Assembly: GCA_017631875.1 (NCBI GenBank)
Contig: JAGBSL010000089.1
Location: 1-13,971 of the forward strand
Direction of reading: 5' to 3'
DNA length: 13,971 nucleotides
DNA from: Bacteroidales bacterium
Lineage (GTDB): Bacteria > Bacteroidota > Bacteroidia > Bacteroidales > UBA932
Below the pieces are notes generated by a model. That model searched no databases. It worked only from the letters and a program-made list of their open reading frames with translations, and was not told the origin of the DNA. This document shows positions 8,256 to 11,233 of the stretch, piece by piece. Position 1 is the stretch's first letter. Every line of letters starts with the position of its first letter. Both the position numbers and the translations under genes were made by a program.

Positions 8256-8295
8256 ACCGGTGCGACAAAAATCTGCGATTTTATGGCACACTGGT
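8256..8295 (-). repeat. 40-bp hairpin module A1
   Basis: Forty bases beginning (plus strand) ACCGGTGC and ending CACTGGT, an imperfect terminal inverted repeat (8 of 11 positions pair). It encloses a second dyad: on the - strand AAATC-GCA-GATTT, five perfect pairs. It aligns without gaps to module A2 with 31 of 40 identical bases by hand count and lies exactly 73 bp from it. On the - strand TGTTTTGC (8308-8315) precedes it by 12 nt. Confidence 0.75.
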
Positions 8296-8328
8296 ATTCA
8301 AATCGAGGCAAAACAACAAAAAACGAAG

Positions 8329-8368
8329 ACCGGTGCACCTAGAATCTGTGATTTCATGGAGCACCGGT
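8329..8368 (-). repeat. 40-bp hairpin module A2
   Basis: Forty bases bounded by a perfect 8-bp inverted repeat (ACCGGTGC / GCACCGGT), with an inner dyad AATC-ACA-GATT on the - strand. It is a 31/40 direct copy of A1 with a 33-bp non-similar spacer between them. Same length, spacing and terminal ACC...GGT as the pair at 11003-11115, which lies on the other strand. Confidence 0.78.
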
Positions 8369-8458: not shown

Positions 8459-8492
8459 AAATCGGCATCCTAGATATCTAGAATGCCGATTT
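8459..8492 (-). terminator. Rho-independent terminator of rplS/tRNA-Arg
   Basis: A 34-bp near-perfect palindrome: arms AAATCGGCAT (8459-8468) and ATGCCGATTT (8483-8492) around the palindrome CTAGATATCTAG, with one C/A mismatch pair. Read on the - strand it begins at the base after the encoded tRNA CCA end and is followed by the T-rich GCTTTGTTTTTGC. It fits termination of the rplS-tRNA transcript. Confidence 0.8.
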
Positions 8493-10945: not shown

Positions 10946-10983
10946 AATCTGCCATCCATGAAATACTGACAATATGGCAGATT
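10946..10983. repeat. 38-bp intergenic inverted repeat
   Basis: A perfect 10-bp inverted repeat, AATCTGCCAT / ATGGCAGATT, around an 18-nt interior. The plus-strand segment at 10955-10964 (TCCATGAAAT) is identical to the same part of module A2 read on the - strand. Spacing to the next module is 18 bp, not 33, so it is a relative of the 40-bp modules rather than a regular member. It overlaps the grpE promoter upstream region and could be an operator. Confidence 0.6.
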
Positions 10984-11002
10984 GCGTGACGACTCTGCCT
11001 AT

Positions 11003-11042
11003 ACCATCGTTAAAGAATTTGGCCATATTTTGTTACGATGGT
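11003..11042 (+). repeat. 40-bp hairpin module B1
   Basis: Forty bases bounded by a perfect 8-bp inverted repeat ACCATCGT / ACGATGGT (9 bp when the flanking T/A is counted), with an inner near-palindrome centred on TGGCCA. Module B2 begins exactly 73 bp later. Same unit length and spacer as the A1-A2 pair, on the opposite strand. Confidence 0.75.
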
Positions 11043-11075
11043 AGTCATTTTGACGTGTTTTGCTATACCAGTGGC

Positions 11076-11115
11076 ACCATCGTGACATAAAACACTGATT
11101 ATGTGTAACGGTGGT
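11076..11115 (+). repeat. 40-bp hairpin module B2
   Basis: Forty bases bounded by ACCATCGT / ACGGTGGT (seven Watson-Crick pairs plus one G-U type pair), enclosing an inner perfect ACATAA / TTATGT dyad. It starts with the same 8 bases as B1. TGTTTTGC (11056-11063) precedes it by 12 nt, as at A1. By hand, about 23 of 40 ungapped positions match A1 read on the - strand. Confidence 0.72.
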
Positions 11116-11124
11116 AGCCCCGGG

Positions 11125-11172
11125 CATTTCGGCCCTGCACGGGCCGGACCAAAAATTCTTCGAGCTTTTTGG
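11125..11172 (+). repeat. 48-bp double-hairpin direct repeat, copy 1
   Basis: First copy of a perfect 48-bp direct repeat (period 61 bp). Each copy holds a GC-rich hairpin, CGGCCC-TGCAC-GGGCCG, followed by an A/T hairpin, CCAAAAA / TTTTTGG with a 10-nt loop. In this copy the A/T stem is 7 bp. The 13-bp gap between copies (GGACTTTATAAAA) is unrelated. Base composition differs sharply from the AT-rich flanks. Confidence 0.88.
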
Positions 11173-11185
11173 GGACTTTATAAAA

Positions 11186-11233
11186 CATTTCGGCCCTGCA
11201 CGGGCCGGACCAAAAATTCTTCGAGCTTTTTGG
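11186..11233 (+). repeat. 48-bp double-hairpin direct repeat, copy 2
   Basis: Identical to copy 1 over 48 bp. Because TC follows, the A/T stem extends to 9 perfect pairs (GACCAAAAA / TTTTTGGTC, 11208-11235). The TTTG inside the right arm (11229-11232) is placed as the -33 element of the downstream phosphoesterase gene, so stem formation and promoter use would overlap. Confidence 0.88.

Follow-up and report, generated by a model that had tools for sequence, protein, structure and literature searches.

The 13,971-nucleotide stretch of Bacteroidales DNA analyzed here (contig JAGBSL010000089.1, forward strand; "the window" below), whose relatives are metagenome-assembled genomes (MAGs) of gut Bacteroidales, carries two pairs of 40-bp palindromic units, doublets A and B. 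Each pair is very probably one non-autonomous 113-bp element similar to repetitive extragenic palindromes (REPs), the dispersed form of doublets that flank genes for TnpA_REP-like Y1/HUH proteins of ~305 aa (tnpA). The full pattern ACC-N34-GGT-N13-TGTTTTGC-N12-ACC-N34-GGT occurs without mismatch at 11003-11115 on the plus strand (doublet B) and at 8256-8368 on the minus strand (doublet A); with up to three mismatches it was found at 2 places in the window vs. none in 200 dinucleotide shuffles. TGTTTTGC itself occurs once per strand, each time inside a doublet. Doublet B consists of unit B1 (11003-11042, arms ACCATCGT/ACGATGGT), a 33-bp spacer (11043-11075) with the T-tract TGTTTTGC in its middle at 11056-11063, and unit B2 (11076-11115, arms ACCATCGT/ACGGTGGT), all on the plus strand. 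Doublet A, read on the minus strand, consists of its first unit A2 (8329-8368), a 33-bp spacer (8296-8328, TGTTTTGC at 8308-8315), and its second unit A1 (8256-8295). A preliminary description of this DNA had thus placed both loci correctly, with their 40-bp units, 33-bp spacer, 73-bp period, terminal ACC...GGT, and TGTTTTGC exactly 12 nt ahead of the second unit; its estimate that units A1 and B2 share about 23/40 bases agrees with our own count from the unit sequences (23/40). Its statement that each 8-nt arm keeps a perfect partner holds for units A2 and B1 (8/8 Watson-Crick pairs each) and fails for B2 (7/8) and A1 (6/8). A CRISPR array, suggested by the 40 + 33 repeat-spacer look, was rejected: each unit is a palindrome, the two units of a pair are not identical, and spacers at different loci are related.

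A BLAST search of pair B against nine relatives returned no match, and geometry and covariance searches were therefore used instead. We searched for the pattern in 150 relatives of the genome (G001) of the window's nearest relative, L001, a water-buffalo cecum MAG that holds the best relative of a 664-aa window protein (83% identity). Matches were found in 11 genomes. G041 has the full pattern at 11 places, G009 and G074 each have a palindromic match that is convincing, and the matches in the remaining 8 are chance-like, both judgments being our own reading of the sequences. Because a reversed control pattern also gave single matches (in 12 genomes of the same search), single matches are at chance level and only the 11 places in G041 stand out by number. 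At ≤3 mismatches, G041 contains 51 single units, compared with 2 when the pattern is reversed; viral contigs, scanned for the exact pattern, gave 0 matches. Among 20 G041 regions read, the step was 73 bp in 17 and 72 bp in 1, and 2 held a lone unit. Eighteen doublets selected at 113 bp aligned without gaps, and their two 12-bp stems showed both-sided, compensatory changes in 23 of 24 pairs (covariation score 0.715 vs. a shuffled mean of 0.230, with 0/500 shuffles as high, and 0.06-0.21 in slid controls). Selection for base pairing, which had been proposed from the arms of the two window loci, is borne out by these changes.

The covariance model R1, built from the window and six genomes (related genomes, which are not independent), gave at least 17 matches in G001, 48 in G002, 9 in G003, 69 in G004, 48 in G009, 47 in G074, and 72 in G041. 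These and all later R1 counts are lower bounds with both strands counted, drawn from at most 150 scored candidates per genome or, in the 150-relative search, from at most 25 with stricter filters. No match was found among up to 150 scored candidates per genome in G155, G121, and G136. Doublets A and B score 92.0 and 80.8 bits, values that are high by construction because both were included in the model. The same 40 + 33 + 40 bp element is therefore dispersed in several gut Bacteroidales genomes, as the preliminary description had supposed; of the outcomes that it had listed as speaking against a family, none occurred, in that more than these two loci match, the spacing is shared with relatives, and shuffled sequence does not reproduce the architecture.

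We placed 67 elements relative to open reading frames (ORFs), namely the 113-bp R1 matches, with other lengths and an overlapping L060 match left out. Fifty-five overlap no ORF call ≥100 aa and 12 overlap a crude ORF call. The 55 lie between tandem genes (31), convergent genes (17), or divergent genes (3), or at contig edges (4), so that pointing toward the downstream gene, as had been noted for the two window pairs, is not a feature of the family. This distribution also bears on whether the doublets are structured RNAs or transcription terminators/attenuators acting on neighboring genes. Hairpins with covariation and the 17 copies between convergent genes would fit that reading, but covariation fits DNA palindromes equally well, both strands match R1, 31 copies lie between tandem genes, the spacer is conserved as A/T tracts at fixed positions, and the gene linked to the family encodes an HUH nuclease (see below). 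Rfam gave a tRNA alone above gathering score in the window, and nothing over the doublets at E ≤ 5. We consider an RNA nature, which the preliminary description had also entertained, highly improbable, while a secondary role of doublets as terminators may exist.

The linked gene was found through its product. In the first nine genomes examined, all had matches to Y1_Tnp (PF01797) in open frames of 287-372 aa; a profile built from five of these proteins (profile A1) reached 1e-8 in 72 of the 120 G041 relatives searched. The linked protein has ~305 aa, a C-terminal extension, and C-terminal helices in its protein model, and most members are not recognized by Pfam. A fold search returned Y1 transposases as best structural matches, the REP-associated tyrosine transposase 4ER8 ranking first; when the PDB was searched by sequence with a second profile (profile A2), the single match was weak and unrelated. 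An alignment of 48 sequences shows the tyrosine and the two histidines to be invariant, the HUH motif being mostly THxH and the tyrosine motif Y.[LM]RN. The NCBIfam model REP_Tyr_transpos (NF047646) matches 23 of the 48 members at E ≤ 1, with 3e-6 as the best value and no match for the first member; its cut-off is 80 bits, and five wider-family proteins score 24-52 bits. Neither profile A1 nor profile A2 matches any window frame ≥40 aa.

Palindromes are enriched beside these genes. Flanking 72 distinct tnpA-like ORFs, a strong palindrome was present in 84 of 144 flanks (shuffled mean 7.35), and for 91 ORFs a strong palindrome pair was present in 38 of 182 flanks, compared with 2 pairs altogether in five shuffled sets. 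The distances within flank pairs were 71-73 bp (21 pairs), 85 bp (6), 82 bp (3), and 52 bp (3), with five single other values; the open scans covered 45-110 and 48-111 bp, and in the latter L239 also has an overlapping 52-bp pair of equal score. FastTree placed 16 tnpA genes, whose proteins share 51-83% mutual identity, in one clade (support 0.83), several inner nodes of the tree being poorly supported. The open scan found 72-73 bp pairs at 9 of the 16, and a scan with laxer thresholds, restricted to 72-74 bp, added 5 (L142 and L146 had none); 9 clade genes have a doublet on either side, and 5 have one on a single side. Five clade genes added later, from G005, G007, and G008, had a 73-bp pair in 4 (open scan) and none in 1. 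Pair distances elsewhere in the tree are 71-72 or 82 bp in neighboring clades and 85 or 52 bp in more distant ones; among individual tnpA-like genes, the pitch is 85 bp at L135, L141, L081, and L103, 82 bp at L092, L132, L149, and L248, and 52 bp at L112 and L121.

The presence of the element follows that of the clade. In the 150 relatives, R1 matches occurred in 7/7 genomes with a clade TnpA vs. 2/143 others (G035 and G063; Fisher P = 1.2e-10, kinship ignored), the clade threshold of profile A2 ≥450 bits having been chosen after the score gap and the tree were seen; two of the seven, G033 and G048, were not used in building R1. A separate test with 20 genomes included 10 without genes of the profile A1 type, nine of which had no R1 match and the tenth one weak match. 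In the same test, R1 matched at least 32 times in G030, 5 in G033, 24 in G048, and 10 in G035, and six genomes with sister-type genes had 0, 0, 0, 0, 1, and 1 matches.

Each TnpA lineage has arms of its own sequence, which diverge along with the enzyme; the two correspond in most genomes tested. We compared 59 dispersed copies (the 67 elements minus 8 that flank a tnpA; 2 of the 59 are those in the window, and L209 also adjoins a truncated tnpA) with the arms beside 14 tnpA loci. For each of the 15 G009 copies in this set, the best match is one of that genome's own three clade genes, and seven of the copies have L165-type arms, a type not used to build R1. The best match was also the genome's own tnpA for 2/2 copies in G003, 1/1 in G004, and 1/1 in G074, and for 0/1 in G001. 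In G002, 7 of 20 copies match its L136 gene and 13 have L143-type arms; a tnpA fragment at a contig edge of this genome is 93% identical to L143's protein, and the doublet L209, one of the 13, adjoins it. None of 17 G041 copies best matches its own tnpA, and profiles A1 and A2 found no tnpA for the ACCGACAGGC arms in that assembly; these doublets may be an orphaned family or belong to a gene on a missing contig. As for the window, the locus A arms best match the doublets on either side of the G001 gene at C87 (L167; 10.5/12), and unit A1 shares 33/40 bases with L230, a dispersed unit of G001. The locus B arms are nearest the L147, L155, and L136 types (9.0-9.25/12). The best reading of the differences in arms between A and B is that one genome contains two arm subfamilies, as G002 and G009 also do, and this accounts for the compensatory changes between the two loci.

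The dispersed unit is the doublet. We found 10 pairs of near-identical copies (≥88/113), and in 7 of these the flanks match at just 6-17 of 30 positions, e.g., L062 and L063, which are 110/113 identical with unlike flanks. Of the three pairs with common flanks, one lies to either side of the L147 gene, one occupies an orthologous site in G074 and G002 (L026, L195), and one belongs to a larger duplication (L059/L068). In 45 non-redundant copies there is no clearly conserved flanking base or target motif outside the 113 bp (maximum 0.20 bits per position) and no GTAG/GTGG tetranucleotide at the hairpin foot. Sharp boundaries and multicopy dispersal are also what a miniature inverted-repeat transposable element moved by an ordinary DDE transposase would show; we regard such an origin as the least probable of all, given that abutting exact target duplications ≥4 nt occur at 0/57 copies (permuted mean 0.13) and that the linkage is to Y1 genes, no search having been made for a DDE gene with the same arms. 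With 2 nt of slack the counts slightly exceed expectation (2 duplications of 5 nt vs. 0.63 expected, 1 of 6 nt vs. 0.16), which may be a weak signal; a clear target duplication was not found.

An orthologous site is available for locus B, whose neighbors are grpE (PF01025) and a metallophosphoesterase-GDPD gene. The grpE intergenic region of L001-L004 keeps a 38-bp dyad (window 10946-10983) and lacks the doublet in 4/4, so that doublet B either arrived later or was lost in these relatives. The comparison covers locus B: beyond the tRNA, synteny is lost in L002-L004, and the L001 contig ends before locus A, which neighbors a 633-aa ORF without a Pfam match and a tRNA-Arg.

The interior of the element is patterned as well. 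Unit orientation is mostly direct (25 rows, 24 from G041 and 1 from G004, judged by eye from unit interiors), and the spacer between the direct-tandem palindromes is asymmetric. In 46 non-redundant copies, conservation is highest not in the arms but in A/T tracts, located at columns 15-18, 24-26, 46-48, 56-58, 66-68, 88-90, and 97-99; TGTTTTGC (columns 54-61) is the middle tract. Their period is ~10.3 bp, with the observed power reached by 23 of 5000 palindrome-aware permutations, and since the 73-bp pitch is ~7 turns, the phased tracts lie on one face of the helix. This hints that the double-stranded DNA may also be contacted on one face. Arrays extend the doublet to three units in G041 and to six in L006, where 40-bp palindromes follow one another at steps of exactly 73 bp. 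The L006 array (1075-1479) has closely similar spacers and arms of the G041 ACCGACAGGC type.

Such phasing, together with the six-unit array and the C-terminal helices in the protein model, could mean that the ~305-aa proteins are domesticated DNA-binding proteins with a role in DNA organization or gene regulation and the doublets host-kept, double-stranded operator or architectural sites instead of mobile DNA. We consider this unlikely, because near-identical copies occupy unlike sites within one genome, the arms are wholly different between lineages and mostly track the local tnpA, doublet B is missing in 4/4 relatives, and the catalytic histidines and tyrosine are invariant. Under the preferred reading, a non-autonomous REP-like element served by TnpA, the protein would recognize the doublet hairpins when the DNA is single-stranded, its tyrosine would cleave at the hairpin feet, and it would copy or move the doublet into intergenic sites; the double-stranded doublet might in addition be contacted on one face through the phased tracts. 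We infer these steps, namely binding, cleavage, and transposition. A wider scheme is possible, though doubtful: HUH-protein lineages may have radiated in gut Bacteroidales, several per genome, each with its own arms and a lineage-specific pitch (72-73, 82, 85, or 52 bp), and the proteins may recognize one helical face of the double-stranded doublet through the phased A/T tracts, either ahead of single-strand cleavage or in its place. If true, the code by which such an HUH nuclease system recognizes DNA would be two-site and helically phased.

Several other repeats lie near the doublets. The dyad at 10946-10983 (AATCTGCCAT...ATGGCAGATT), previously described as a related dyad, was excluded from the family: as L001-L004 conserve it upstream of grpE but have no pair there, it is a separate grpE-upstream element, and the TCCATGAAAT stretch that it has in common with unit A2 is not conserved in relatives. 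It is a candidate heat-shock operator. At the site of doublet B, the L001 sequence is another one and includes a short palindrome (CCCCCAGTCACTTCGTGACAGCCCCC..., ~2058-2103), so that what occupies this intergenic spot varies between species. Identical 48-bp direct repeats at 11125-11172 and 11186-11233, which include two dyads, one GC-rich and one A/T-rich, are terminator-like, and L001 has two repeats related to them. At 8459-8492, adjoining the tRNA-Arg, 17-nt arms with 94% complementarity and no spacer form a possible terminator.

REP systems are best studied in proteobacteria, where they consist of single palindromes or inverted doublets with a GTAG tag. The present family adds a Bacteroidales branch that is large and mostly unannotated, in which nucleases and palindromes are matched within one genome and the geometry is fixed. 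It offers many natural enzyme-site pairs for studying how these transposase relatives choose sites and whether their spreading of DNA continues, and it explains one class of the intergenic palindromes of gut genomes.

Features of REP systems recur here: dispersed, mostly intergenic palindromes, the same palindromes at a Y1/HUH gene (except for the G041 ACCGACAGGC family), and an HUH fold with the tyrosine. With regard to an IS200/IS605 insertion sequence, in which tnpA would move together with its ends and leave near-identical copies, the comparison covers the 16 clade proteins (51-83% mutual identity). In the parts of the literature drawn on here, REPs and REPtrons with TnpA_REP/RAYT likewise combine short dispersed palindromes with copies flanking a Y1/HUH gene (Nunvar 2010, PMC2817692; Quentin 2018, PMC6006769), can form several gene-palindrome families per genome, and have arms that co-diverge with the gene; a REP-associated transposase, 4ER8, is also our first fold match. 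They differ from the present system in that here there is no GT[AG]G foot, the units are in direct tandem at a fixed 73-bp pitch, and the protein has ~305 aa, a C-terminal extension, and mostly THxH, and is mostly missed by Pfam. The doublets thus appear to work like REPs but, having no GTAG foot, are not filed as classic REPs. Similar in host range is subclass 2.6 of TnpA_Y1, described in the sections consulted of PMC6006769 as mostly from Bacteroidetes, with a median of 179 aa and the tyrosine motif YIH[QN]NP; Bacteroidetes tnpA genes are there flanked by untagged "atypical secondary structures" that recur at other genomic places. Hosts, flanking structures with dispersed copies, and the lack of GTAG are alike, whereas length (~305 aa) and Y.[LM]RN set our proteins apart by that published description, and the groups may overlap. 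REPINs and BIMEs, as partly summarized from PMC3116915 and PMC2817692, are also dispersed palindrome doublets of about this size, with regular spacing in BIMEs, but their palindromes are inverted or alternating, in contrast to the direct tandem, the asymmetric spacer, and the six-unit array at 73-bp steps found here. TIRtrons with TIRYT genes, in the portions cited of PMC3733652, are Y1 genes bounded by non-GTAG repeats, can be multicopy, and in some cases have self-complementary tracts; their repeats are terminal and inverted, and ours are tandem palindromes beside the gene. A description of the tandem 73-bp-pitch architecture was not found in our searches of the open-licence PMC literature, supplements aside. 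Since untagged structures beside Bacteroidetes tnpA genes had been reported in the cited sections of PMC6006769, the kind of system is already known, and what is new here, as far as our searches show, is the tandem, untagged architecture with its 73-bp pitch and the protein lineage that accompanies it.
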